From contig BLSF01000041.1 of assembly GCA_012862575.1 (NCBI GenBank), forward strand, positions 328,178-392,177: a stretch of 64,000 nucleotides of DNA, given 5' to 3'. Positions 3,812 through 62,521 of this stretch are shown piece by piece. The notes under the pieces were generated by a model. The model ran no database searches, was not told the origin of the DNA, and saw only the letters and a program-made list of their open reading frames with translations. The stretch comes from Parietichytrium sp. I65-24A. Lineage: Eukaryota > Sar > Bigyra > Thraustochytrida > Thraustochytriidae. Position 1 is the first letter of the stretch, and the number at the start of each line of letters is the position of its first letter. The translations under genes and the position numbers were made by a program.

Positions 3812-4483
3812 GTCTCTCGCCAACCAAGTGTCGCAGCTCGCAACTCACAGCTCAAGACCGCCGATGAGCAGAGAGCAGAGAGCAGAGCCAGCGCCCCTTC
3901 CTCGCCAGCAGCGCGTGGACCGTTCGCGACCGAGAGAGAGAGAGAGAGAGAGATGGAATCACAGTGGCAACGAGAGCTTTGGCCGCCGTCCGGAGGGTCT
4001 CCACCGCGCGCGACCGCTCGCGAGAGTGCGTTCTACGCTTCTCTTCTTTGCCAGCTTCCCTGTTATTGACTGCGAGTTGTGTATTTTTAATTAAAAGTAG
4101 CGTTCTGCGCTCTTCGTTCTTGGCTTGTTTAGGAAACTTTGCTGGTTGACTTTCTTTTTCTTGTTGTCTTTTGGCTTTATTGGTCTTCTTGCCGCTTCCA
4201 TCCGTGTCTATCTTTACCTGTACACGTCAGACAAAGCTTGAATCGGAGTTTTCAAGTCGAGTCCAACTCACAGCTGACTCGGACTCTGTTTCAGTTTGCT
4301 TTTGTTTTGTTTTGTTCTGTTCTGTATTGGTATTTATATTGACTTGACTTTGTCGCAATTGTATGAAAATTGTTCACAAACGACTGCAACGGATCGAAAC
4401 GAGCAGCGAATAGTTCCGGAACGAAAACGCTGTGTCATGTAATTGTCTCCACCAAGTAACTTGACCAACCAAGTGGTTCAAGT
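3812..4483. other. Gene-free spacer with GA dinucleotide run
   Basis: No coding frame with recognisable protein character. It holds a (GA)n run at about 3932-3953, just upstream of the IQ-protein start, and T/A-rich sequence before the first tRNA gene. The 5' UTR and promoter of the minus-strand IQ gene should lie here, but I see no clear TATA box. Confidence 0.5.
4467..4478. promoter_or_regulatory. Inverted repeat just upstream of initiator tRNA copy 1
   Basis: AACCA-AG-TGGTT, perfect 5-base arms around a 2-base spacer, ending 5 bases before the tRNA 5' end. The two other initiator tRNA genes have an equivalent ACCA...TGGT inverted repeat at the same distance, which suggests an upstream element or a processing signal. 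Function is inferred only. Confidence 0.45.
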
Positions 4484-4571
4484 AGCGGCTTAGCTCAGCG
4501 GTAGAGTGGTGGGCCCATAAGCAATTATAGGTGTTACCCATAGGTCGGAGGATCGAAACCTCCAGCCGCTA
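4484..4571 (+). tRNA. Initiator tRNA-Met (CAT) with 16-nt intron, copy 1
   Basis: A full cloverleaf can be drawn: acceptor AGCGGCT/AGCCGCT, D stem GCTC/GAGT, anticodon stem GTGGG/CCCAT, T stem GGAGG/CCTCC, discriminator A. The anticodon CAT is at 4516-4518. Initiator hallmarks are the A1:T72 pair, a G29-G31/C39-C41 run in the anticodon stem, and a T-loop starting with A (ATCGAAA) where elongators have TTC. An extra 16 bases (4520-4535) sit at the canonical 37/38 intron position; removing them gives a 72-nt tRNA. The intron can fold back on the anticodon loop as an ATAA-GCAA-TTAT hairpin with a GNRA-type tetraloop. A Pol III T-run (TTTT) follows at 4576-4579. Intron-bearing initiator tRNA genes are unusual among eukaryotes. 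Two further copies lie on the minus strand near 10 kb. Confidence 0.93.
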
Positions 4572-7440
4572 TTTCTTTTGTATATTTTGTTTTATCGTTT
4601 TTTTGGGAGGTGAGCAGGTTGAAGTGCTGTCATTTCATTTTGTCTATTCTTCCTTCGAGTTGCCGGGCTATTTGACAGTGTAACACCATCATGACCATCA
4701 CCTCTGAGAGATCGAGTGCCATGGCTGGATTTTGCAGGCGTTTATAGTTGGGTTGCATGATCCATGAAACATCTCATGGAAGCAGTGGCCCTCGATGCAG
4801 GAAACCCTATCATCCGTATCAAACAAATTCATGATCGCGAATCAAACTGTACGTTACATGTACGCCATTGGAGAAAGCACAGCTGTGTAAAGCACACTGT
4901 GCGCTATGGTTTGGCCAGGTGCACAGCTCCCGCGAGGCAGTTCGTTTCCCGGATGTTGAGCTTTCGCGAACCGCGGAAACTTTCACTTGTGTTTGAAGTT
5001 CCTCATCAAGTGCTGGTTGCTGTGCTGTCGTTTCTCGGAACGCAAGCGTGAAGATATCCAGACTGGAGCGGACTCTGTGGAGAGTCTATTGTTGTGAAAG
5101 AGGGTCTTCGAACTTTGCGACATCTTGGAAACGGCTCCCGGGAATCAGAACTTGCGCCATAGTATTGGTGTGGCACACTGACAGTCGATCGTTCTTACTC
5201 GCGCGGTGGCAGTTTGCAGCTGGTGCTTTCAGTCTGTGGGTTAAGATTTTGGAGATTACAGTTAGAAAGTCCTTCCTCAAAAGAGCCTTTCTTGTCTTGA
5301 ACTCAGACTGCAAACATCGTCGAAAAGAAAGTTTAGACAGAGCTCGGCAGAGCAGTTTCTCGCGTCACGCCAACTTGAGGCCTCCGAATCTTTTGGATAC
5401 CGTCGATGATGTACGGCAGAACCTTTGAGCTCCTCAGGGCCTCTGAGCCTCCGATGCTCCGAGAGCGAGCGACATTCCACTCCTCGTCACTGAGTCCCCT
5501 GGCCGTCACAAGGGCCGACCGACTTGGGAGTCGCTGAATTTGCGAAGAGGAATTGGCACGGACGATAGCACAGTACAGTGGTTACAAACTAATGCAAGTT
5601 GTCGACATTTGGGAAGTGGCCCTCAACTCTCAACTGTCCAGGCACACGCCTCTCACTCACGCCAAGCTCAATACTGAAAGAGTTATCTAAATTCTGAAAA
5701 TTTTCTCAATGTTCTGCATGATAACCTCTGTAAACCCTTGTATCAACAATGCCAATGAAATGTATGTATGTCATCAGAGCAATGAAACACCACAAGTGGT
5801 CCGAAAAGTCTATCTCTCACCAGTCTTCATAATTATCATTTCCCTTCCTTCCTTCCTTCCTTCCTCCCATTTCGCCGACTACCGATGACTACCGGCGACT
5901 TTGCCATCATCCGGCAAACTTGCAGAATGCAGAAACTTCAAACAAATTTCGAAACGAACGATGTCGTACAAACCTTGAGGAACTCACGGTCAGTTCCGAC
6001 TCGGACTGACCTTTCAATGCGAGTACTGACGTTGTGAGCACCGGTACTGTTCTACTTTTCCAAAAGTCGTTCACTAATCACAGTCGATGCAGTTTCGCCC
6101 TCATCTCTTCGAGCGATGGTTTTTAGAGTCGGAGGTCAGGAGTGTTCGACGGCCTTGCTGTCAGTTGGCCAGTAGCACGATATGAACACACTCTAGCTTC
6201 CGACATCTTTCAGCCTCAAGGAACCTCAAGGATCCTCAAGGCCCTCAGGTTTCTGACTGCGTTGCAACACAGTGCAAGAAGCAGTGGCAATGTACGATGC
6301 TGGGTGATGTTGGGTTAGGTTCTATGAAGCTGGATGAGGAGACATTGAAATAGACGTAGCAACTCGTAAGTTGCGCTGGATTTGTAGTCAGACCGAATAT
6401 TCTTTGAGGAAAGCGCGCGAGAGTCTACTGGCGAAGTTTTACCCTTTCATTGAGCGCTGCTTATTAGGCCGACAGTTCTTTGAACCTCATGGCTTGTGGT
6501 AAGGAAGACCAGTCATACGTTTGCGACAGGAAGCTTTTCTTTCATGTGAAAAGCACAAGTTAATTACTCTGCATCGCAGAAGATTTACATTCCTACCGGC
6601 ACGATAGGAGTAAACACAATGTCATTGACCTCTGTCTATCGAGTCCGAGTACAGTCAGTCTTGCAAATTAATTTCGCAAGACACGAGTTCAGAGTTCAGA
6701 TTTTAAAAACCGATCGTTTTCTACCCTGAGTACAACCCTCTTCGCATTTCCTATGGAGATCTATCTTCGCAATTCGGGTCCACAAAAATCGCAAATTCTA
6801 AAATTTAAGATGTCAAGGTGTGAGTGAATTGCCGTCCGGGAAATTTGACGCGAATGTCGCAAAGCTCGCGACCTTTTTCTTGAATCAAACGGGGCATGCC
6901 TTCTTTAACTCTTATATACGCGTTGCTATTCAATTTGATGTCATTTCTGCCAGATTCAATGAGGCCCTACTTGAACGATATTATATTTCGTATGTCAAGC
7001 CTGAAATAACGACATTTGCAGTCTGAAAAAGCGGGTGGCAAGGGATTGGTCACTTGTTCTGCGTTTCACAACTAGGAAATTGAGAGTTCTAAACCTACCG
7101 ATCTGTCGAAATGAAACGAGGCGGCAGAGTCGGCAGAGGTTACTTGGTTTCGCACCAGAATAACAAAAGCTTAGCTTCTCCGGAACAGCAAAATTTTGAT
7201 TATGTGTGGACCTCTTTGCCTCAAGTCGATTCTGCCTCTTCTTCAAGTCGTCCTATATTTGATCTTGCCTGCAGAGAGCTCTCGCATGAAGGATGAGCAA
7301 TTTGAGGAAGGGCAGGTCTTCAGACTCCAGCAGACCCAAAACGAACCCAGGAGCAAAACCCGAAGACGGAGTTCAAGTCACAAGCTCAGCAAACGTTTGT
7401 CAAGAGTCGCTGCAAAGCCTACCATCTCCTTCAAAACAAA
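4572..7440. other. Gene-free spacer (2.9 kb)
   Basis: Only short overlapping frames of non-protein-like composition are present, and no recognisable RNA gene. There is a short (TTCC)n run near 5846-5865 and scattered GGTACT-type words (for example near 6040). The stretch 7100-7440 upstream of the secreted protein holds its probable 5' leader. An intron-rich or very short gene could be missed here. Confidence 0.45.
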
Positions 7441-7845
7441 ATGAAGCTTCAGCTACTTGCACTTGGCGGCATTGTCGCACAGTCCGCAGCTCTCGACATT
7501 GATATCTACAACAACCGTTTTCCAATGAGCATCGACTGCAAGACCAGCATTCTCGCCGCTTGCACGGACTGTGGCTCCTTGCTCGAGGACACCGATTGCA
7601 TCAGTGAATGCGTCATTGGAACTGAGGCCGTTTCCTCGGATTGCGGCACCGAGTACACTGAGTTTTTGGACTGCTGGAGTGCGAAGGTTGAGGACTGTGG
7701 AACTTGCCTGGACGCCTCTTGCGCGCCAACGTACAATATCTGCATTGCCGCAAGCCCTGAAATTTTGCAAAAGTGCACGGGCAGCTCGAGCACAGGGGTC
7801 CTTACGCAAAGCAAAGTCGCAGTTGGAGTATCAATTGGACGCTGA
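7441..7845 (+). CDS. Small secreted cysteine-rich protein
   Basis: A 134-residue frame starting with ATG. Residues 1-17 form a typical signal peptide (basic residue, then a Leu/Ala/Gly-rich core ending near S-A-A). The mature part contains 12 cysteines in about 110 residues, spaced in short Cx2C, Cx5-6C and Cx4C steps, which suggests a disulfide-stabilised extracellular domain. I do not recognise the family. The last about 20 residues lack cysteine and look less ordered, so the true C-terminus could differ if an intron is present. No neighbour gives a functional hint. Confidence 0.6.
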   Translation: MKLQLLALGGIVAQSAALDIDIYNNRFPMSIDCKTSILAACTDCGSLLEDTDCISECVIGTEAVSSDCGTEYTEFLDCWSAKVEDCGTCLDASCAPTYNICIAASPEILQKCTGSSSTGVLTQSKVAVGVSIGR

Positions 7846-8639
7846 AGAAGTACCACAGCGCTGGATTGTGCAATGAGTTGCAAGATCGAAATTTTCTCTT
7901 TTGGTCCACTAAATGGTAGGTGCAGCCTTTTTAAAATAGCCCTCATCAGTCATTTTCTTCTTGCATTTCCAAACTTTCAAATTGTTAAAATAGCCATTGA
8001 AAAGCTGTGCGCAATTGAGGATCCACATGCAGCTAGAAGAGGTGTGAGATTTGCAAGTGCCTTCCGGATTCGTGCGATTCGATCTTACACATTTGCGAAT
8101 GTCTTTTCAGGGAAACTTCTCCGATGCCAAAGACCCTTTCATGCTCCACATGGTATCGGATGCGCTACTTGACAAGAGCGCAGCATTGTCTTTGGCTGAA
8201 CAGAAAGTTTATTTTCATACATTACTTGCACTAGCGACTACCTGGTTCCGCGAGTGGTTCACAGAGAAGATCACAAATTTGGCAGCGATGAGTTGTGATT
8301 GAAGCAGCGGCCAGAAGCAGAATATGCTCCCGGGATTCACGAGCGATGTCAAATGGATCAAGATGCTTGATGGAAAAGCGATATAAGGCAGAGGAGTACG
8401 AACAGCATGAATAAAATGTTTTTCATGCCGGTGATCTCGTTCAAATCACTCTTGAGGCAGACAACTATTGCCAAGACCCAAACATCCCTGGAAAGTAACA
8501 AAAAAATCATTGAAAGGTAGCTAGCTGAACAGAAGAACTTTTGGAAAGAACTATTTTAAAAATATATATTTCAGTGAAGTTATGTCATACGATCATTGCC
8601 TTATAAGTACAAGAGCTGACTTGCTGTGCTAAACCTTTT
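7846..8639. other. Gene-free spacer
   Basis: No convincing gene. Two overlapping plus-strand frames (7873-8172 and 8051-8302) lack domain character and have no good start context. It probably holds the 3' ends of the flanking convergent genes. Confidence 0.45.
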
Positions 8640-8918
8640 TTAGCAACACGTTCTGTCGTGCTTCAAGGTTCTTCCGCACGACGCGCACTTGTATTTGGTG
8701 TCCTTGCATGAAGACATCACGAATGGGAGCCAGCATAACGGGAAGAACACGAAAATAAGAACAATGAACGCGATAATGGCTCCAAGACCGACTTTGCGTT
8801 CCTGAACGATGGTGTTCCCGCCACAACGGCACCTTCCCCCGACCTCGTGTGGGTGATCATATCTGTGCGCTTTGTGGTTGGCCTCTACATAAACTGGCTG
8901 AGCTGTGTACGTGGTCAT
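8640..8918 (-). CDS. LITAF-like zinc-binding membrane-associated protein
   Basis: A 92-residue protein from an ATG at 8918. It has the LITAF/BRI3-type layout: a short polar N-terminus, a first cysteine pair (C30 and C32, CRC followed by GGNT), a hydrophobic stretch at about residues 44-69 interrupted by a Cys-Trp, then a KD-containing segment and a second pair C78-x2-C81. In LITAF proteins the two cysteine pairs join to bind one zinc, and the hydrophobic segment dips into the cytosolic leaflet of late endosome/lysosome membranes. The first pair here is C-x-C rather than the usual C-x2-C, which is odd. Two more cysteines end the protein (CC), possible palmitoylation sites. Family call from pattern; cellular site inferred. 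Confidence 0.72.
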   Translation of the reverse strand: MTTYTAQPVYVEANHKAHRYDHPHEVGGRCRCGGNTIVQERKVGLGAIIAFIVLIFVFFPLCWLPFVMSSCKDTKYKCASCGRTLKHDRTCC

Positions 8919-9924
8919 TTTGATTACTCTGGTTAGCGCTTCTTGTGCTCTTCTTCGTATGTTTTCCTTTTGTGCTTTTGGTCAAGTGTGAGTTTTGGGT
9001 CTGCTGATCAGCAATCAGCTGATCGCCAATCTGCGTTGGTTTGATTCTCGAACGCCCAAACTTTGACGGAGGACTGGATGGCCTTCGGCATATATAGCTT
9101 CAGCGACGTTATCGGACCGACCAGTCCAAACTGTGAGAACGGTACGTACAGTAGGAAAGAGTGACATCGAAACCAGGACGTCTCTGACTCTCTGACTCGC
9201 TGACTAGATCTACGCCCTGCACGCCGGCTCTTCATCCCGCACTTTTAATGCAGTGAGTAAATTAGACTTACCGTCAGAAATGGCAAGTGCGAGCCACGTT
9301 TCTGTTTCCTTCGCCCACCAGACCTTTCATCGTTCGCAATAAGTTTGAATCAACGAAGCGGAAGGAACAATGACCAGGATGAGAGTTTTTAAACACAGAA
9401 GCTTTCTATTCCGCTCGTTCCTACTCAAACCAACTTGCCTGGCCTGGCGATATGCATACCGGTACAGTAAACTCTCGAATTCTCATTCATCCAAAAGATT
9501 TGCTAGCCTGTGGGGATTCCAGGCTACTCGTTTAAAGGCGTTACCCGCTAAAGGGTGGTTAGGGATCCTACTTTATAACGGCTGATAACGTCGATGTCGG
9601 GAAAATCAGGTCCAAACCATTTCGAGATATTCTTCATAGCGAGAAATTCGCACTGAACTTACTCCAATTCACCGTACCACTGTAGCACTTTATATACGTA
9701 CACACTGCAGTGGCAATAAAGAATAGAATGGAAGCGAAGTAACTTTTGATGAAAACTGCAGAGTTCAGTGCAAACATTTCGGGCAACAACAGGGAATTAG
9801 GGGAGAAACTGCAGTACCAGTTGGTACTCAGTACTCACAGTCAGTACCGGTAGCTGCAGCCATTTCGTTGGCCCCAGAAGAAATGCGAGCTCTCTTCGAT
9901 CTCGCAAAAAATACATGCAAAAAT
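8919..9924. other. Gene-free spacer with GGTACT-type repeats
   Basis: Contains a TATA-like sequence (TATATATG on the minus strand near 9089-9098), about 175 bases upstream of the LITAF-like ATG and a plausible promoter for it. A cluster of GGTACT/AGTACC words lies at 9814-9852, including the perfect inverted repeat GTACCA-GT-TGGTAC at 9814-9827. No coding region is supported. Confidence 0.45.
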
Positions 9925-10012
9925 TAGCGGCTGGAGGTTTCGATCCTCCGACCTATGGGTAACACCTATAATTGCTTATGGGCCCACCACTCTACCGCTG
10001 AGCTAAGCCGCT
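9925..10012 (-). tRNA. Initiator tRNA-Met (CAT) with 16-nt intron, copy 2
   Basis: Identical to copy 1 over the full 88 bases, including the 16-base intron after position 37 with the GCAA loop. Read on the minus strand, it has A1:T72, an A-starting T-loop and the GTGGG/CCCAT anticodon stem, so it is an initiator. A Pol III T-run of five (plus-strand A's at 9919-9923) follows directly. Confidence 0.93.
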
Positions 10013-10017
10013 AACTG

Positions 10018-10033
10018 ACCACACAACTGTGGT
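10018..10033. promoter_or_regulatory. Inverted repeat just upstream of initiator tRNA copy 2
   Basis: ACCACA-CAAC-TGTGGT, perfect 6-base arms, beginning 6 bases from the tRNA 5' end. Equivalent in position and ACCA/TGGT core to the repeats beside copies 1 and 3. Confidence 0.45.
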
Positions 10034-10176
10034 GTGGGCCACTAAGGTAATCTGGTCCGATAAAAACTTTGTGCGTTTGATCGTGCTGAGAAAAAGAAGA
10101 AAGACCTCGCACACCTCGCACTCACAGTCAGGAAAGAAAATGTTCTGAATGGAATGAAGACGAAAAAACAAAAGAA

Positions 10177-10264
10177 TAGCGGCTGGAGGTTTCGATCCTC
10201 CGACCTATGGGTAACACCTATAATCGCTTATGGGCCCACCACTCTACCGCTGAGCTAAGCCGCT
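10177..10264 (-). tRNA. Initiator tRNA-Met (CAT) with 16-nt intron, copy 3
   Basis: Same mature sequence as copies 1 and 2. The intron differs by one base: the loop is GCGA instead of GCAA. Both are GNRA tetraloops, so the change is compatible with the same hairpin. Pol III T-runs (plus-strand A's at 10170-10173 and 10163-10168) follow. Confidence 0.93.
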
Positions 10265-10270
10265 ATCTGT

Positions 10271-20248: not shown

Positions 20249-22417
20249 CTACTTATCGTTGAGGTCCAGATCAGTGAGCAAGTTGGACACAAAATCTTGC
20301 AAGTGAGGATCGTCCACTTCGTGAGTTGGGTCAGAATCATCGTGACGCTGTGTCGGTGGCTGATCATCCTGTGCATCCGATGCTCCCAAATTGACGCCAG
20401 AAAAGCTTGAGAATGCACCGTTTCCAAATATTAGAGGCGGCGAGCACGAGTTGGGCCGAGCCGACGGCGATGGCGAACACATGGAGGAGTTGCTGCTAGA
20501 ACCCATCATGAAAGGCGACACAGAGCCATAGCGGCTCGAGATCGTAGGCGGCGTGGACGAGTGCGCCGACGGTGTCGATGTATGCGGGCCGTGGCCGCCA
20601 ACAAGCGAGGAGTTGCTGCTTGGGAGAGGATTTGTGTAAAACCCACCCTGAATCGAAGAGAAAGCGGTCGAGGACGACGAGCTGGCGGTGCTCATTCTGC
20701 TCGGCAGGCCACTGCTTGATGCCACAAAGCTTTCGCTCACCACACTCTCCGGCGAAGGATTCTCTTCTTGGCGGCGCTTTTGAAGCAGCTTGATAGCCTC
20801 GCTTATGTTAGGGCACTCGCGTGCTACGTGTCCTACTTTTCCACACTGAAAGCACTTTCGGCCATAAGGGCAATTTTTCAGACGGTGCCCGGGCTCCGAA
20901 CAATTCAAGCAAATGTTTTTCTTTTTCTCTGACCCATCGCCACCACCCTCTGCAAAATCGTCCCCGACAACTGTTACGGGGGTTGGCGTTGCAGTGTTTC
21001 CACCCCCAAACTCCTCTGCGGGGCCAGCGCCAAGACCAGCGCAAGCATGGTTGCCGAGCTCGCTCTCTGCTTCCTCATCCTCCTCCTCTAGAGACGGTGC
21101 AATCTCATTCGCCAACGCAGAATATTTGCATTGCTTCGCCACGTGCGTCGTCTCTCCGCATAGAAAGCACGCGCGCGGCTGCTTGCAATCGCGAGAAAGG
21201 TGGCCGAGACCATCACAGTTAAAGCATCTCATGGACTCCTGGTTTTCCTGTGCACCTTCGAGGTCTTCAGACCCGTCCCCGGATACCTTCTTCTTCTTCT
21301 TCTTCTTTCGTTTCTTTTTCTTATCCTTTTCATCCGACTCTGGAGTCGTGCCAAGCGACGTAGCCATCGTGCCAGCACTCATCATATTCGGCAAAGGTTG
21401 CGAGGCAGGGCGCGTCTGCAGAGCAGCCATTTCCCGCGGCTCCCGCGGCTTGGGAGTAGAAGCAGCCTCTCCCAAGGCACTAAAGCTTCTCGAGAAACTC
21501 TGAGCTCCAGACACGTCGGAAGGTGTGTCGAACCCAGAGCGAGCCGGATGAAGAGGTTCAAATTTATTTTCCACGTCCTCATACATGCCGCCATCGATGT
21601 AAATCCTGCTCCTAAAGGCAGACAGATGGTCAGCGCTCAAGGCTCCACTGTCCATACGCGGGGTGCTAAACCCCCCATGCTGCTGCTGCTGCTGTTGTTG
21701 CTGCTGCGAGCGATGCTGTTCGTCATACCCAAAGGTTGGGCCAAAACCACTGTATATGGGCTGAAAAGGGCTAGGCTGCTCGCGCTTGACTGGAGGAGTC
21801 ATCCTGTTTAGGCCATGATTCACAGGGCTGGACATGGGCGGATTTTCAAAGGTGGCAAGTTCGCTATCGGTCTCATTGTGGTTTCCAAAACCACTGTAAA
21901 ACGACTCGTAGCTACTGGTACTGTTTACACTTGCACTGCGAAACTTGGTGTTCGCTCGAGCGCTGGCAGCAACCCCTTGTTGCCACGCGCTGGAAAAGTG
22001 CGGCTGGCGCTGTTGCATGCCACCTTGTCCTTGATGGTGAGGGTGGTACATGCCGCCATGCTGCTGCTGCTGCTGATAGAGTTGTTGGTGATGCAGCTGT
22101 TGCTGTTGTTGCTGCTGCTGCTGCTTGAGCCCTGATGGCTGCTGCTGCTGCCTTTGTGGCATGCCGTTGACGCCATGGTGCTGAACTGCGTTGCCAGAAT
22201 TGTACATGATGTAGGGCGAAAGTCTCACTTCGGGCCCTACCGAGCTAAATGCGGAGGCTGGCGAAGGACTCGGCCCTGGCGTACCCAAAGGGCGGCCCTT
22301 GAGAGCTTGCCAGGAAGCCCACGAGTCAGCGTCGTCACTGCGCTCTGGCGCCGGAAAGTCTACTTCAGGACCCCCGTGATTGACTTGGCTATTGTTCTCC
22401 CAAAGTCCACTTTTCAT
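20249..22417 (-). CDS. PolyQ protein with four CCHC zinc knuckles
   Basis: 722 residues from the ATG at 22417; the frame is open further upstream but without another ATG. Residues about 90-120 and 238-246 are polyglutamine encoded by CTG/TTG-type repeats on the plus strand. Residues about 364-377 are a Lys/Arg run, likely a nuclear signal. Two pairs of CCHC knuckles (C-x2-C-x4-H-x4-C) follow at about 398-411, 417-430, 503-516 and 522-535, separated by an acidic/Gly linker. The C-terminus is Ser/Pro-rich. Tandem knuckles of this type bind single-stranded RNA or DNA, as in CNBP/Gis2 and Air1/2. Low-complexity flanks suggest an RNA-granule or mRNA-regulatory protein. No reverse transcriptase or protease is present, so it is not a retroelement Gag-Pol remnant by itself. 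Confidence 0.85.
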   Translation of the reverse strand: MKSGLWENNSQVNHGGPEVDFPAPERSDDADSWASWQALKGRPLGTPGPSPSPASAFSSVGPEVRLSPYIMYNSGNAVQHHGVNGMPQRQQQQPSGLKQQQQQQQQQLHHQQLYQQQQQHGGMYHPHHQGQGGMQQRQPHFSSAWQQGVAASARANTKFRSASVNSTSSYESFYSGFGNHNETDSELATFENPPMSSPVNHGLNRMTPPVKREQPSPFQPIYSGFGPTFGYDEQHRSQQQQQQQQQHGGFSTPRMDSGALSADHLSAFRSRIYIDGGMYEDVENKFEPLHPARSGFDTPSDVSGAQSFSRSFSALGEAASTPKPREPREMAALQTRPASQPLPNMMSAGTMATSLGTTPESDEKDKKKKRKKKKKKKVSGDGSEDLEGAQENQESMRCFNCDGLGHLSRDCKQPRACFLCGETTHVAKQCKYSALANEIAPSLEEEDEEAESELGNHACAGLGAGPAEEFGGGNTATPTPVTVVGDDFAEGGGDGSEKKKNICLNCSEPGHRLKNCPYGRKCFQCGKVGHVARECPNISEAIKLLQKRRQEENPSPESVVSESFVASSSGLPSRMSTASSSSSTAFSSIQGGFYTNPLPSSNSSLVGGHGPHTSTPSAHSSTPPTISSRYGSVSPFMMGSSSNSSMCSPSPSARPNSCSPPLIFGNGAFSSFSGVNLGASDAQDDQPPTQRHDDSDPTHEVDDPHLQDFVSNLLTDLDLNDK

Positions 22418-25400
22418 TCTCTGCGGCCGTGCGCCGCCGCCTGCCACGACGTCGCCTGCGAAGGCGTTTGCGATTGGCTGGCTGGTCTCTTCTTGCCGTC
22501 TCCAATGCACACAATCTCTTTCAAGTCGCCCCAATGCCGCGCACAGAAATATATTGTCCAAACCAAGAACAACGATAGAAAGATCAGAGCACTGAGCACT
22601 GCGCACTTCGCTCGCCACTGCACGAACAACTGGCTCACAACAATCGAAGGAGCATACAAACACACCCGCCCCGCTAGACCCACCAGCAAGACGCGACCCA
22701 GCAACAGTCTTCTTCCACCGGCGCCTCGGACAGAGAACAGACACAGAGAGACCAATTCGCAGCGTCGTCAAACTACGTCCTGTCCGCCGGGCGTCTCGCA
22801 CACAGCACAGCACAGCACAGCACAGCACAACGGACAAGCCCTCTCGCACCTTCCACGCCTTCCACGCCACCCTCGAATTCGCGCTAGAGCACCACTTTAC
22901 CACTTCACCACTTCACAACTGCACCTATTCACCTATGCACCTGTTCACCTATGCACCTGTTCACCTGTTCACCGAGCCCGCGACCACAGCGAACAGAGCG
23001 ACTGCAGCGAACAGAGCGAACAGAGCGAACAGAGCGAGGACGCCTTCCTTCTCCTGCGCACTCTCCCCCACACCTACGCCTCTCCCTCTCTCTGTCTCTG
23101 TCTCTCTCTGTTTCTGTCTCTCTCTGTCTCTCTCTCTCTCTTGGTCTTTGACACTTCCCAGGTTCTATAACAGCGACTTCGCTTTGCTTTCTTTTCTTTT
23201 CTTTTCTCTCTCTCTCTCTCTCTTTCCTTCCAATTCCTTGCACTTGCTAATACTTACTAATACTTGCTAGATCGCTCCTCACAGCGGCCGCTACCTGAGA
23301 CGCCTATCCATCCCATAGCACTTCCCACCGCCCGCTAGTGGTTTTTAGCGGTTTCTAGCGGCTGGTTCTTGGCAGTAGTGCGCGGTAGGAAGGGGTAGGT
23401 GACGGGTAGGAGAGGGTAGAGGCCGGCGCTAAGGGGGAGTACGGAGAGGCGTGCAGTATGGGAGGCTAGGCTAGGCGGGCTAGCGGAGTGAGGGTTATGA
23501 GATGGGGTAGATCGCTGGTAGAATGGACCCGGCAGAGAGAAACAGATCTAACGAGACTGCTAGCGGGACTAACAGAAATCTTATCGTTATGAATAAGTGT
23601 ATCCGTAACGAACCTCCCCTACAGCGATCGTTAAAAAGTGTAGTAGCGGCACAGACGCTCGGAGAGACGCTAGCTACCGGATAAGCTATACGCGGCCTAG
23701 CAGGAAGAGGTGCTTCCCGGTAAGAGCGGCCTCCTAAGGACACTACACCGACTGGGGGGGTCCTATCCGCCCGGGTATCTCCTTGACTAGGAGTTGGCAG
23801 GCCGGAGGTACTATCTGTTAGTAGTCGTGCTATCTTGTGAGATGGAAAGAAGTGGAAGAGTGTCAGAGTATTGACAGTAAGTAGTGGTCACTACTAGTAA
23901 GTGATTTTGGTTTTCCAATCGTGTTCTGTTTTTCGTGTTTTGGCTGTTTTGGCAAGTTTGAAGCCATGCAATTCATTAAAGTCACAGTCAATCAACAGTC
24001 AAAGAGCGAGAGAGAGATCGTTGGAAAGAACGTAGTCACTCGCTGTCAATTAAAAGCGGGGGCTCTGTTCACGTTGTCGTTGTTGCGTTGTTAAAAGCTT
24101 CCTTAAATGCGGTGGATAGATAGACATTGACAGAAAGCGATCGATTGGTTTCATTCAGATCGATTTTGTATGGATTGATTGATCAATTGATTGATGCATT
24201 GGAAGTCGGTGGCATCCGTCAAATCAGTCACATCAGTCTCACTCACTCTCGCTCTGCTGACTTTTCGAGTAACCTAACTCACCGTCACTGCCACTGTCAC
24301 CGTCGATGTGACTCACTCATTCGCTCCAATCATCTCCAATTTCAACTCCCGCGGCCTGCTACCCGCGCGTACGGAGCGCTACACGGCCGGCAGTCGCTGA
24401 TGCGAAAAAGGATGAAGGTTGATGAAGGCAGCGAAGGAAGGATGCGATGGCGGATTACGATGGGAGCTAGCGCGGCAGGTACGCTGACTGCTCACTCTGC
24501 TCTCTGCTCACCAGCAGATACATGCAGATACTGGGAGTGCTGTGCAGTGCAGTGCAGCGCAGTGGTACTCACAGTCAGTATCCCACCGCAACGCACAACG
24601 GGTCGCTTAGTTGTTGCTGTTGTTGTCGTTGTTGTTGGCCCATGCCATGCTTGTAATTCTTGACGCTGGTACTCAGTATACTCGGTACTGAGTACTCGAG
24701 AACTGATCTATGCCGCTGAAATGGCGCGTTCTCCACGAAAAAATCTTTGGCTTTCGCACGCCAGCGTCTTCTTTCATTTGCCAGGCGGGACAGCGCTCAA
24801 AGCCAGTAGACGATGCGAGTCGTAGGACAACTCGAATTTAAGGTGCGAGCGGCGTAGAGCCGCCCGCCTCAAGGCCTCAAGGCCTCAAGGCTCCATTTAT
24901 CGATGGTGTCAATCAAATCATCGAACTGGACCGGCGCGAGTAGCGTTCGTTTTCGTTCATTCATTCGTTCCTTCGCTCGCTCGTTCGCTCGTCGATCAAG
25001 CTCAAGACAACTCAGAGTCAACGATCCCAAACTCGAACTGTCCAACTTCTCACAAGGGACTTCTCCGTTGGGAAGAAGCGGGATTAGCTTCAGCTTGCAA
25101 GCCTCTGACCGACTGGCCTGGATCGTGAACTATGGAATGATGATGAATCATGAATCATGACTTCTTCCACGCGTCCATACTCGGGGCACGGATGTTGAAA
25201 ACTGTCCCAGCGCAAGCGGCTATCGAGTCAGCCTGCTTTGTTCTCCTCTCTTTCACCACCTTGTACCGCCACTCTTGCGCAAGGCGAACGGTCACCGGTC
25301 ATTTCATTTCCATCATTTCCATTTTTATACATTCCGCTCCTCCCACCATCTTACCATCTCTGCCATTGCAAACGCACTCATTTCTCCCGTTGACTTGCTC

Positions 25401-56965: not shown

Positions 56966-59900
56966 ATGACGGGACAGAAGGAGAACTGGAGATTCTGGGA
57001 CAGGATATGTGCGGTGGTAGTGAACGAGGCTATCGTGTACGGAGGCACGCACTGCATCGTCGCCAAAGTGGAACCGTTGCCAAATTCGCGAGTGTGGGGA
57101 TCGGGCGGTAAGATCAAGGTGTTTAGCGACTGGTTTGGCGTGGGTCAGAAAGGACCGGAAACGCTGGACAACGATGAGGACGAGGAAGACAGCGACGGTG
57201 ACGGCGAGAATGAGTCTGGCCAGGAAGGAGACGGACCAGGAGTGGACGGGCGCGACAGAGTGGTCCACATGGAGCGCGAGGAGCTACTGAAGAAAAGGAT
57301 TGAATTTCTGTGCCGTGACTGCCAGTGCAACCCGCTCATTGCTCCGAATCCGCCGCAAGTGCTCGATTTTGTGACTACATTCGTGAAAGAAATTCTGCAG
57401 CATAAAAAGGACATGACCGAGATCAGAAGCAAGCTAAAGGTCGAGGCGGAGGACGCTATCAAGCTGCAGCATCTGGCCTCCAAACTCGACGCAAGCCTTA
57501 GAGCAGACCCAGAAAAACTAGGCGATCGAAAACGCGATCTACGAAGCAAGGTGAAGGCAAAGACTGAGGCAACCACCATATCGATTGAAGGGCTGCGCGA
57601 AAAGCTTGAGACACTAGAGCGGGACGGTGTCCCCACAAAGGCAGAGGATATCTGCGAATTTGTAAATAAAACGCTTGATCTGAAATCCTACAGTTGCGGC
57701 TGCTCTGAGCAATTCGTGAGATCGATTCTTCACGAGACTGTAAACGCCGAGCTCGCTGGACTTGCTGTTGTAGCAGAGTCAAACCTGGAGCCAAACCCGG
57801 AGGAAACGAAGATAGAGAATAAGAGATCATCAGTGCGCCGCCCTCGACCATTCAGTTTAAGACAGCCGACTGAGCCTCTGGTTCTCGGCCGTTTCTTCGA
57901 CGATGCCGCCGAGGAAAGCCTTGCTGTTCTTGCGACTGAACTTGAGCGACGAGGTTACCCGCTTTCAAAGTATGAAATTCTCGAGATGGCAGCCGAAATG
58001 CTTGGAAGCGAGGACAGGGCTGACTTTGCCCGGGAAGCAAGTACCTGGATTTTAAATTGGGAGCAGCGTGTGAACATGAAGGGCTATAAAGTGGATGACA
58101 TTTTGACTCGCGGGCATAACAAAGGTCAGGTCAAGTGGTTTACTGATGAAAATGTCGAGTGGTGGTTTGACAGAATAAAGCGCAGAATGATTGAGCTCGG
58201 AGTGGCTGATGATTTGGAGTCTGCCCAAGAAGAAGTTGTGTGGAGGTACCCTGGAAGGGTGTTGGTCTCACAGGATCTTGAAATTCTCGGAGAGCCTAGA
58301 TTTCTGTCGAGTCGCTCTTCTCGAAAATACAGGGACTTTGAGTCTCGCAACGGAGCTGGGTGGGAATCCCCGGGGTCGCCACCAGGCGACCACCACAAGC
58401 TGTCTGCACTGATGGGATGTAATTTGCTCTATGAGATGCACCCTCCAGTGTGGGCTGTCCAGGGCTCTGGTGATCAAATTCTGGCCAATGTAAAAGAAGT
58501 TAGTGAGCGGCTCTCTGGAAATAGTACCGGTCCGATCAATGGGCAAGATGACTTTAAGCCTTATGTATCTGCTGGCCCAAGCGTCTGGGCTGCTGTTCCC
58601 GATGCGTGGGTGCAAAAGGTGATCTCCATGATCAAGAGGTGTTATCCAGACGTGTCAAATCACGACCCAAGCAAGAAGGTCATTTGGTTCACAAACGGGC
58701 CGACAAAATTAATGTTTAAGCTGGCCAAAGCATGCCGAAATACAGGCATTCACCTCGTGTCGACCTTGCCTATGCAGGGCACAACTGTAGGCTCTCCTCT
58801 GGTCTCCTTCTTTAGAAGTTTTGAGAAGCAATTGTATCATGCAGTTCGTGAAATGCAATGCGGAACGCACAGGAATCTTTCGGCCGGGGAAAAGGCCACG
58901 GTCGCGAATTCAGTACTCCGCAAAGTAAACAGGTATGAGCTACTGAAGCGCGGGTGCGCAAAGGTCGGATTGCGCCCGTTTCAGCGTGACTTGTTTTTCA
59001 TGGACAGAATCAAATCCAAAGACAAGAAAGCACAGTACTGTTCATCCAGGTCGCTTGCTCTAAGTGAGCTCGAAAGTTCAAGCCACGGCACATCTGAGGA
59101 GGACCGCTGGTCAGTAGTGTCAGATAGAACTTTTGCCGGATCGAATGAGGTGGACATTTTGGCCAGCCTCTCGAAATTGCCGGCAAGCAACAGAGAGTGT
59201 ACACTTCGCTTGGAAAAGGTGCTGAGGAGGCTTGGCAAGCACCGTATGGAGCTTGAAGTACACCGCCAACTCGGCTCCAAGCACTACGAAGCCAAGATAT
59301 CCGTTGCGGAGTTTGAGGCTTCTCTGAAGAGGCTAGCTCAGGAGCAAGAGGCAAGTCGAGCCTACGAGGCCGCGCTTCAAAAAGCCCAAGAAGAGAAAAG
59401 GATCGCACTGGAGAAGGCGGCTCAGGACTACCTCGCCACGACAAAGCTTGCTGAAGCAGAGAAATATCGGTATGAAACCAGTATGCGCAGGGAGCTCAAT
59501 GTTCTGGAATCCATGACTCGACGGCTGCCCACAACGCAGGAGGTTCGCAAGATGCCACAGACCTTGGTGAAGGAAACCTCATATTTGGTAACTATTGCTG
59601 AGCACTTTTTGCAAGCTCAGAGGCAAAAGAAGAGGGATCCGGAAACAGGGCAAGCGTTCGAGGAGGAGGCTGCGAACAACAATCTTCCACCTCGGCCGCA
59701 GAGCCTAGATATTAGGCGCCCGGTGGACAAAGAGAATGTGCAGACCCAAAAGCCGCACCGAGCGCAATCGGTCCGCAACAAGTCGATACTGAGTGACGTT
59801 GCGAGCCCATTGTCACTTGAGTCAGCGTCACCGGTTACAGCAAAGCACATGAGCAAGCTTTCTGACATGAGCGCATTTTCTTCTTCAAGGATGTCGTTTC

Positions 59901-59971
59901 TGGACAGCTTTGCAAGGCGCACAACCTCGTCAGTGGAGCTCAGCGACATTGAGCAAGTGGGAGACTTTTGA
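56966..59971 (+). CDS. Probable domesticated pogo/Tigger-type transposase protein
   Basis: 1001 residues, ATG at 56966. Residues 1-60 are a small hydrophobic/basic domain, then an acidic run (about 68-95), then Lys/Glu helical segments. Residues about 303-375 resemble the CENP-B-type helix-turn-helix of pogo elements (ELERRGYPLSKYEILEMAAEML). Residues about 395-640 follow the DDE plan of pogo/Tigger/jerky proteins: WWFDRIKRRM, VLVSQDLEILG, a hydrophobic plus PPVWAVQG step, W-A-x-VPDAWVQKVI, then VIWFTNGPTK, a helix with GIHLVSTLPMQG, and SPLVSFFRSFEKQLYHAVREM. The usual second acid of the D-N-A-P-S-H step reads T-N-G-P-T-K (Thr576), and the PLD acid reads PLV, so cleavage activity should be lost. 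The C-terminus (about 730-880) is coiled coil, then a Ser-rich tail. No terminal repeats seen. A host gene derived from a transposase is the best reading. Confidence 0.7.
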   Translation: MTGQKENWRFWDRICAVVVNEAIVYGGTHCIVAKVEPLPNSRVWGSGGKIKVFSDWFGVGQKGPETLDNDEDEEDSDGDGENESGQEGDGPGVDGRDRVVHMEREELLKKRIEFLCRDCQCNPLIAPNPPQVLDFVTTFVKEILQHKKDMTEIRSKLKVEAEDAIKLQHLASKLDASLRADPEKLGDRKRDLRSKVKAKTEATTISIEGLREKLETLERDGVPTKAEDICEFVNKTLDLKSYSCGCSEQFVRSILHETVNAELAGLAVVAESNLEPNPEETKIENKRSSVRRPRPFSLRQPTEPLVLGRFFDDAAEESLAVLATELERRGYPLSKYEILEMAAEMLGSEDRADFAREASTWILNWEQRVNMKGYKVDDILTRGHNKGQVKWFTDENVEWWFDRIKRRMIELGVADDLESAQEEVVWRYPGRVLVSQDLEILGEPRFLSSRSSRKYRDFESRNGAGWESPGSPPGDHHKLSALMGCNLLYEMHPPVWAVQGSGDQILANVKEVSERLSGNSTGPINGQDDFKPYVSAGPSVWAAVPDAWVQKVISMIKRCYPDVSNHDPSKKVIWFTNGPTKLMFKLAKACRNTGIHLVSTLPMQGTTVGSPLVSFFRSFEKQLYHAVREMQCGTHRNLSAGEKATVANSVLRKVNRYELLKRGCAKVGLRPFQRDLFFMDRIKSKDKKAQYCSSRSLALSELESSSHGTSEEDRWSVVSDRTFAGSNEVDILASLSKLPASNRECTLRLEKVLRRLGKHRMELEVHRQLGSKHYEAKISVAEFEASLKRLAQEQEASRAYEAALQKAQEEKRIALEKAAQDYLATTKLAEAEKYRYETSMRRELNVLESMTRRLPTTQEVRKMPQTLVKETSYLVTIAEHFLQAQRQKKRDPETGQAFEEEAANNNLPPRPQSLDIRRPVDKENVQTQKPHRAQSVRNKSILSDVASPLSLESASPVTAKHMSKLSDMSAFSSSRMSFLDSFARRTTSSVELSDIEQVGDF

Positions 59972-60174: not shown

Positions 60175-60923
60175 CCATGTGCACTCACATCATACTGGTG
60201 CGTCAAATCCAAAGTCAGCTTGACTATGTATACATATGAGTATTATGAGTCTGTCGTCCACCCTCGAAAGCTCTAGCGCCAGCTACCAATGATTTGCCAA
60301 GGACTACCCTCAAGGTTAAACTAACGAAGCCAGCCAGGCTAGAGTAGAAGCGCAATTTGTGAGCTCTCTGTTTTATTTCGATGCAATTCATTTTTGAATA
60401 TGAACAAGAAGGGAGAGAAAGAAAGCTATTGCAATACACTGAGCACCGCAGCTATGCAAAAAGAAGTTTGTGGCGAAGCATACCAGCTACACACATCGTC
60501 AACCTCATCATCGTCAACCTTGAAAAATTCTAGGTCTGGTACTGTGGAGCTCTCGCAGTCAGCACTCTAGCTAGTCCAGTCTTAAGCTCAGACAGCAAAA
60601 GAGAGTGGCTGCCAAATTGCTGCCAAGCTTGCCAAGCACAAAAGTCGACGATCGATGGATAGATTGATACATAGATTGATAGATGGATAGAGAGATAGAG
60701 AGATCGCGCAAGGAGACGAGTACGCAAAAGTGTACGCAGAGGGAGGAAAGAGGCATCGTGCGAGACAGAGGACAGAGGGCAGAGGCGAAAGGAGAGAAGG
60801 GAGAGAAGGAGAGAAAAATGGAGGACGACGACGTCAAGTTCGCATGGAGGGGAAGCCATATTATCTCGGTGCACGACTTCACCCGCGACGCGTTGGCGGA
60901 GCTGTTCGAAACCGCGGACAAGT
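60175..60923 (+). repeat. Upstream copy of duplicated ATCase 5' region, ending at N
   Basis: About 749 bases that repeat, with roughly 96-97% similarity and a few small indels, at 60925-61653. The copy includes the promoter region and the first 35 codons of the aspartate carbamoyltransferase gene and stops at GACAAGT immediately before the ambiguous base at 60924. Differences include an 8-9 base insertion after AAATTGCTGCCAAG and a 4-base TACA difference. Confidence 0.9.
60818..60923 (+). pseudogene. Truncated 5' fragment of aspartate carbamoyltransferase
   Basis: Codons 1-35 of the enzyme (starting MEDDDVKFAWRG), identical in protein to the intact gene over this length; then the sequence breaks at the N and restarts with the upstream region of the intact copy. 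It cannot encode an enzyme. It is either a true partial duplication or, more likely, a second allele joined at an assembly junction. Confidence 0.8.
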
Positions 60924-60924
60924 N

Positions 60925-61653
60925 CCATGCGCACTCACATCATACTGGTCCGTCAAATCCAAAGTCAGCTTGACTATGTATACATACATATGAGTATTAT
61001 GAGTCTGTCGTCCACCCTCGAAAGCTCTAGCACCCGCTACCAATGATTTGCCAAGGACTACCCGCAAGGTTAAACTAACGAAGCCAGCCAGGCTAGAGTA
61101 GAAGCGCAATTTGTGAGCTCTCTGTTTTAGTTCGATGCAATTCAACATGAACAAGAAGGGAGAGAAAGGAAGCATTTGCCATACACTGAGTACCGCAGCT
61201 ATGCAAAAAGAAGTTTGTGGCGAAGCATACCAGCTACACACATCGTCAACCTCATCATCGTCAACCTTGAAAAATTCTAGGTCTGGTACTGTGGAGCTCT
61301 CGCAGTCAGCACTCTAGCTACTAGTCCAGTCTTAAGCTCAGACAGCAAAAGAGAGTGGCTGCCAAATTGCTGCCAAGCACAAAAGTCGACGATCGATGGA
61401 TAGATTGATACATAGATTGATAGATGGATAGAGAGATAGAGAGATCGCGCAAGGAGACGAGTACGCAAAAGTGTACGCAGAGGGAGGAAAGAGGCATCGT
61501 GCGAGACAGAGGACAGAGGGCAGAGGCGAAAGGAGAGAAGGAGAGAAAAATGGAGGACGACGACGTCAAGTTCGCATGGAGGGGAAGCCATATTATCTCG
61601 GTGCACGACTTCACCCGCGACGCGTTGGCAGAGCTGTTCGAAACCGCGGACAA
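60925..61653 (+). repeat. Downstream copy of duplicated ATCase 5' region
   Basis: The second unit, which runs on into the intact gene. It begins CCATGCGCACTCACATC, matching CCATGTGCACTCACATC of the first unit at 60175. Direct orientation, head to tail, with only the N between units. Confidence 0.9.
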
Positions 61654-62521
61654 GTGCAAGGCCGCGGTGCTGCGGGAAGATGGGTGCGACGATTCCGTGC
61701 TCGAGTGCTGCAAGCATAAAGTGCTGGGCTTGGTGTTTTACGAGCCATCCACGCGGACAAATTGCTCGTTCGCGGCGGCCATGCTGCGCCTGGGAGGGAC
61801 CTACCTGAATGTGAACGAATCCTCCTCCTCGGTGAAGAAAGGAGAGACTTTGCAAGATACCATGCGATGCATGGAGTGTTACTGCGATGTCATGGTGCTG
61901 CGCCACCCGGAGAAGGGCAGTGTTTCGAAGGTTAGTTCGTACCTCCGAAAGCCGATATTAAATGCTGGAGACGGAGCTGGCGAGCACCCAACTCAGGCCC
62001 TTCTGGACCTTTACACCGTCCTCAAGGAGCAGGGCGGTCAACTTGAAGGGCTGACCATCACCATGCTTGGAGATCTCAAGTTTGGACGCACCACACACTC
62101 TCTTGCCATGCTGCTTGCACTTTACAAGGTCAACCTAAAGTATGTGACCCCAGAAGGCAGCGGTCTTGGGATGCCGAGCCATGTCATGGACGCAGTAAGC
62201 TCTCTCGGGCAAGCGACCCAGTCCGAGCACAGCCTTCTTAGCGAAGTCATTCAGGAGACCGATGTTCTCTATGTCACTAGGGTTCAAAAAGAACGCTTTG
62301 CAGATGAGGAAGAGTACAAAAAGGTGCAAGGAAGCTTCATTGTTGACCCAGAGGCTCTTGAGGGCTCCAAGAACACGATGGTAATCATGCATCCACTTCC
62401 TCGCGTTGGCGAGATTTCCGAGCATGTTGACTCGTACCCAAACGCTGCATACTTTCGGCAAATGGAGAATGGAATGTATGTGCGCATGGCTCTTATTGCA
62501 AAAGTGCTCGGAGTACTCTAA
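61550..62521 (+). CDS. pyrB: Aspartate carbamoyltransferase catalytic chain
   Basis: 323 residues from the ATG at 61550. Joins carbamoyl phosphate and aspartate to N-carbamoyl-aspartate, the second step of pyrimidine synthesis. All active-site motifs are present: FYEPSTRTNCSF (Ser67-Thr-Arg-Thr70 for the phosphate), SSSVKKGET (the Ser/Lys loop from the neighbouring subunit), VLRHP (Arg118), GEHPTQALLD (His146, Gln149), GDLKFGRTTHS (Arg180), TRVQKERF (second aspartate-binding Arg) and MHPLPR. The length is that of a free-standing catalytic chain, not fused into a CAD polyprotein. There is no obvious transit peptide from this ATG, unlike plant plastid enzymes. The upstream frame is a GAGA-rich leader. 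Convergent with the membrane-protein gene at the window end. Confidence 0.96.
   Translation: MEDDDVKFAWRGSHIISVHDFTRDALAELFETADKCKAAVLREDGCDDSVLECCKHKVLGLVFYEPSTRTNCSFAAAMLRLGGTYLNVNESSSSVKKGETLQDTMRCMECYCDVMVLRHPEKGSVSKVSSYLRKPILNAGDGAGEHPTQALLDLYTVLKEQGGQLEGLTITMLGDLKFGRTTHSLAMLLALYKVNLKYVTPEGSGLGMPSHVMDAVSSLGQATQSEHSLLSEVIQETDVLYVTRVQKERFADEEEYKKVQGSFIVDPEALEGSKNTMVIMHPLPRVGEISEHVDSYPNAAYFRQMENGMYVRMALIAKVLGVL

Follow-up and report, generated by a model that had tools for sequence, protein, structure and literature searches.

A catalytically dead, pogo-derived and probably domesticated gene in a thraustochytrid genome

A frame of 1001 aa located at 56966-59971 (+) of the 64,000-nt stretch of DNA analysed here (the window), and referred to below as the window gene, is best explained as a pogo-derived transposase that lost its catalytic residues and became a host protein, a reading to which we assign a probability of about 0.65. 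Domestication had been proposed in a preliminary description of the sequence, and it stands as the best reading because the gene is present in a single copy, has no detectable terminal repeats, keeps an intact frame and has had all three catalytic acids replaced; it is likely rather than certain. The first three of these features are those by which domesticated pogo genes are recognised, although single copy number does not by itself set the window gene apart, given that the family members found in the same genome are likewise single-copy. Since the metal-binding acids were replaced while the frame was kept, a non-catalytic role is indicated.

The window constitutes the end of contig C41 of the genome searched (42.5 Mb, 172 contigs). 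Other frames in it match the vasohibin, protein kinase, phospholipid-translocating ATPase, ribosomal protein L1 and aspartate carbamoyltransferase families, and the gene of the last of these lies beside the window gene; the window is thus a host region of a eukaryote. Searches for phycobilisome and chlorophyll-binding families returned nothing at E<=0.001. The long intact frame noted in the preliminary description was borne out, as the window gene runs from ATG to stop without interruption, and its features are collected in Table 1. Elsewhere in the window, an 884-aa frame (20249-22903, reverse strand) carries CCHC zinc knuckles in two stretches, and a tandem repeat of ~740 bp (60175-60930 and 60925-61662, identity 89-100%) includes the 5' portion of the aspartate carbamoyltransferase gene. 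The two units are joined at one N (60924) and are probably two alleles set end to end by the assembly.

Table 1. Features of the window gene (positions are those of the window).
Feature	Position	Strand	Basis
Whole frame, catalytically dead pogo-derived protein, 1001 aa + stop	56966..59971	+	Frame, homology, DNA copy search
Acidic stretch, residues 61-100 (16 D/E vs 3 K/R in 40)	57146..57265	+	Composition
Charged, presumably coiled-coil stretch, residues 131-240	57356..57685	+	Composition; alignment to C14 not significant
Putative second helix-turn-helix region, Tc5/CENP-B type, residues 311-395	57896..58150	+	hhalign vs the C54 part matching HTH_Tnp_Tc5
Pogo DDE_1-like domain, residues 425-625, catalytic acids replaced	58238..58840	+	Homology, hhalign, MAFFT
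Gln436 (CAG), catalytic position 1	58271..58273	+	Alignment
Asn577 (AAC), catalytic position 2	58694..58696	+	Alignment
Leu612 (CTG), catalytic position 3	58799..58801	+	Alignment
C-terminal charged, presumably coiled-coil region, residues 741-870	59186..59575	+	Composition; within 692-888, alignable to C14 C-terminus
Ser-rich tail, residues 871-1001 (20 Ser in 131)	59576..59968	+	Composition

A Pfam scan of the window protein gave no family at E<=10, DDE_1 and HTH_Tnp_Tc5 included. A PDB sequence search yielded 8 matches, one to Spindly (E 4.9) and 7 to immunoglobulin chains, none of the latter better than E 0.21; all were taken as chance and dropped as relatives, and the same search with a profile of the window protein and its two closest relatives produced 5 matches, all with E 0.21 or worse. 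Scans of viral and GTDB prokaryote contigs, in which such a lineage is not expected, revealed no relative, and a single-sequence AlphaFold2 model of residues 299-700 had a mean pLDDT of 37.5, too low to bear on an RNase H-like fold. The relatives came from the same genome, where a search with the window protein matched C14:116686-117792 (E 1.7e-32, 28% over residues 311-691) and C1:407400-408395 (E 1.8e-8, 22% over residues 374-700). A match on C59 (E 1.25), lying partly over the end of a different frame of 513 aa, was attributed to chance; further weak matches appeared in the family searches on C46 (E 0.51) and C8 (E 0.95).

The only protein found by whole-genome searches with DDE_1 and HTH_Tnp_Tc5 lies on C54, a single frame of 1029 aa matching HTH_Tnp_Tc5 (1.6e-8), DDE_1 (1.8e-18) and the Ulp1-type peptidase C48 (4.6e-7). 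Its HTH-DDE part retrieved the C1 frame at E 0.004 (E 0.10 in the reverse search), and the open C1 frame matched DDE_1 (E 0.13) and HTH_Tnp_Tc5 (E 0.14) in Pfam, both short of the threshold. When the profile of the window protein, C14 and C1 was compared to the C54 protein by hhalign, a probability of 95.3% and a score of 64.4 were obtained over a span from the second helix-turn-helix (HTH2) to the third catalytic residue, against 25.2 for the best of 100 shuffles, 18.3 for the reversed protein and 21.6 for the best of 16 unrelated chunks. C14 and C1 without the window protein reached 94.6%, and a profile of C14, C1 and C54 scored 184.9 against the window protein, with 50 shuffles scoring at most 20.5. 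The tie to pogo runs through C1, since the window protein and C14 alone score low against C54 (6.1% and 4.9% probability) and C1 scores high (86.9%). These sequence comparisons support the descent of the window gene from a pogo-superfamily transposase that had been claimed for it, through C14, C1 and the profile comparison to C54, and they support a DDE_1 homology reached via same-genome relatives and shuffle-controlled profiles. The DDE fold order read by eye from the letters also stands in part: the order of HTH followed by DDE is supported by homology to the relatives and to C54, but the window protein alone matches no Pfam model.

The family members found in this genome are all single-copy and divergent. 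C14 shifts frame in a stretch of nine G, possibly through a sequencing error, and C1 shifts frame within HTH2, at a point where it lacks sequence present in C14. A helix-turn-helix and coil-like protein without a DDE domain is encoded at C43:154123-155394, open and with pieces in two frames, and a similar relic at C130:36808-37808, also without the DDE domain, lies in four pieces, one of them with a stop; to judge from their sequences, these two would form a DDE-less branch of the family. With the C43 protein as query, the window gene was not among the matches at E<=1. The frame breaks of the relatives might seem to set them sharply apart from the intact window frame, an idea dropped given the nine-G run of C14, so that only C1 and the DDE-less C43 and C130 count as decayed. 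The pogo-type protein of C54 (C54:211982-213094 and flanks), also single-copy, resembles the window protein in its alignable triad and, as far as the alignment shows, in its HTH2-DDE order; it differs from it in keeping an intact D-D-D and in being fused in frame to the C48 protease domain, and the kinship of the two is remote. Pogo elements are not otherwise known to carry a fusion to Ulp1. Ulp1 and transposase are named together in part of the text of a paper on Ginger transposons (PMC2836005). Elsewhere in the genome, a 5583-aa open frame (C66:8562-22499) has four matches to one and the same N-terminal segment of the PfaA model (positions 176-516), which we take to be the ketosynthase, and is perhaps a modular polyketide synthase; no match to PfaA exceeded the cut-off of the model.

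The alignment of the catalytic positions proved stable. MAFFT was run in four modes on three sets of members, and in all 12 runs that held the window protein, Gln436, Asn577 and Leu612 stood opposite the three catalytic aspartates, which are kept as D-D-D in C14 (253, 378, 414), C1 (115, 258, 294 of the open part) and C54 (323, 441, 478). Between the second and third positions there are 34 residues in the window protein and 35, 35 and 36 in these relatives, and a spacing of 34 falls inside the pogo range of DD29-56D given in part of PMC7386202. Asp437 and Glu439 adjoin Gln436, making a one-residue shift possible at position 1; around 577 and 612 there is no D or E for five residues either way, which leaves at least two of the three acids without a substitute close by. 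Catalytic death, as previously claimed, is therefore supported, with some correction of detail. The preliminary description had assigned the lost acids to Thr576 and to the Val of a PLV motif (613), which was right as to the loss of both but in each case one residue off the aligned position, and the replacement at position 1 was not among the two that it listed.

The hhalign match to HTH2 of C54 begins at residue 311, and within HTH2 the window protein retains only 2 of the 10 residues common to C14 and C1 (C1 being itself damaged there), from which it is possible that DNA binding was altered or lost; 6 of 8 such residues are kept in the stretch that follows, and 37 of 98 overall. Residues 131-300 showed no significant similarity to the coil and first-HTH part of C14 or of C43, as 71/200 and 100/200 shuffles, respectively, reached the score, and the CENP-B-type first helix-turn-helix attributed to the protein was thus not confirmed. 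A small N-terminal domain common to the family members was likewise considered and dropped (shuffle z of -1.3 to 0.5 in all 6 pairs). The C-termini, in turn, are alignable (z 6.4 for C14-C1, 3.9 for window-C14 and 2.2 for window-C1), and for residues 692-888 against the C14 C-terminus none of 200 shuffles reached the score. The C-terminal charged region was therefore probably inherited rather than added, and the earlier view of the coiled-coil part as an addition does not clearly hold for it.

A DNA search of the genome with the window gene, which had been proposed as a check, returned one match, the gene itself, and the multiple similar copies of an active pogo transposon were not found for it. 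No inverted repeats of score >=12 flank the gene within 3.5 kb on each side, in agreement with the reported lack of visible terminal repeats. At 60 random window positions used as controls the best score was 10-14 in 53 and 89 in 7, the latter presumably spanning a long inverted repeat at 4478-10018; the method thus detects long repeats and would miss very short ends. Inverted-repeat matches around C14, C43 and C54 were no longer than those of controls, and the flanks of C1 contained one perfect 15-nt inverted match (control maximum 14) with no TA beside it. The inverted repeats found far upstream in the window (4478-4588, 9908-10018 and 10170-10265; 96-111 nt, 93-97% complementary, 5.3-5.6 kb apart) are possible ends of another mobile element.

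Intactness of the frame was also examined under a model of neutral decay covering 12 divergences from 0.005 to 0.3. The joint probability of losing the three acids while keeping 1001 stop-free codons was at most 7e-6, with its peak near a divergence of 0.03, a value to be read as post hoc, the gene having been picked for these very features; the model ignores small insertions and deletions, whose inclusion would lower the probability. Codon use was scored against 13 long frames presumed to be host genes (9 from the window, 4 from C59), not all of them with a Pfam match. The window gene (0.035) fell within their range (-0.002 to 0.087), as did the C54 pogo protein (0.015), and C14 (-0.006), C1 (-0.028) and C43 (-0.001) lay at or below its low end, C14 and C1 being below all 13 host frames and C43 near the lowest. 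Read on its complementary strand, the window gene scored 0.038; the measure thus separates the strands poorly, and codon use counts as weak support.

An alternative to domestication is that the window gene is the remnant of a recently dead transposon with no host role, whose ends and catalytic residues are gone while its frame is still intact by chance or owing to a recent death. The state of the relatives agrees with it, C1 being broken in HTH2 and C43 and C130 lacking the DDE domain, with C130 in pieces; however, the low neutral joint probability argues against it, as does the genetic code, by which the changes from D to Q and from D to L each need at least two base changes, and we regard this explanation as unlikely. 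Even less probable in our view is a dominant-negative regulator, transposon-encoded or host-kept, in which the dead protein would bind the ends of intact C14-like or C1-like relatives and block them, in the manner of the truncated P-element repressors that block intact elements. Relatives with an intact triad do exist in the same genome, the domain order appears to have been kept, and relatives with HTH and coil but no DDE domain are also present (C43 and C130), but there is no apparent mobile target, since C14, C1 and C54 each occur once and without clear ends, and the high divergence of the window protein (28% identity to C14, 20% to C1) makes binding to the same ends doubtful.

A different history within domestication itself would be that of an old host family, domesticated once before duplication, with the window gene as the dead-triad paralogue and C14 as a triad-keeping one, comparable to the fission-yeast Cbt proteins. 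This variant, to which we give a rather low probability, forms part of the domestication reading and does not compete with it. It would account for members that each occur once, diverge from one another and lack clear terminal repeats, and for the long frame of C14, whose frame change lies at the nine-G run; against it, C1, C43 and C130 look decayed, and the codon scores of C14 and C1 are below every host frame and that of C43 is near the lowest.

For the window gene as a domesticated host protein, CENP-B and the fission-yeast Cbp1 family provide a functional model. By analogy with them, the helix-turn-helix of the window protein would bind a specific DNA sequence, the weakest link of the proposal since HTH2 is poorly kept, the dead DDE domain would have a structural role, and the charged, presumably coiled-coil regions together with the tail would recruit partners. 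The protein would act in the nucleus, where it might mediate silencing, and host selection would maintain the dead gene. The centromere or chromatin role suggested in the preliminary description is conjectural. It may tentatively be viewed as an independent domestication of the CENP-B or Cbp1 kind outside animals and fungi, giving rise to a protist chromatin or silencing protein in which all three acids were replaced while triad-keeping paralogues persist, a proposal that we hold with less than even confidence.

The window gene shares pogo-superfamily descent with the Cbp1 family (the S. pombe proteins, Cbt1-6 and Cbt7); unlike these, it encodes a protein that matches no Pfam model and has acidic, charged and Ser-rich regions, and that is presumably longer than Cbp1. 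According to part of the text of PMC10085805, the Cbp1 family comprises three S. pombe proteins in which at least one acid of the triad is now non-charged, DDD or DDE is found in 4 of 6 Cbt proteins, and Cbt7 of the Dipodascaceae is called domesticated on the grounds of single copy, absence of TIRs and a common locus; the present genome, in which single-copy members with and without a triad stand side by side, resembles this. Among vertebrates, 12 pogo-derived genes are described in a portion of PMC7386202, with triads unrecognisable in CENPB, TIGD3, TIGD4 and TIGD5, and the order of HTH and DDE_1 in CENPB, JRK/JRKL, TIGD2-7, POGK, POGZ and CENPBD1 is like the apparent order in the window protein, although this set carries HTH_Tnp_Tc5 and DDE_1 domains and the window protein scores on neither. 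The same portion reports pogo transposons in Stramenopiles and Rhizaria. Repeated, independent pogo domestication in vertebrates and yeasts is documented in parts of three papers (PMC7386202, PMC7325037 and PMC10085805). Among the papers found by literature searches no title concerned the window gene, nor did any opening of an abstract among those found on domesticated transposases in thraustochytrids and stramenopiles.

The kind of gene is therefore known, and the window gene is a further case of it, with domestication likely. A further pogo domestication, possibly in another eukaryotic branch, that is missed by Pfam would suggest that routine annotation misses such genes, and where members with and without the triad occur in one genome, it can be asked what is retained once catalysis is lost.
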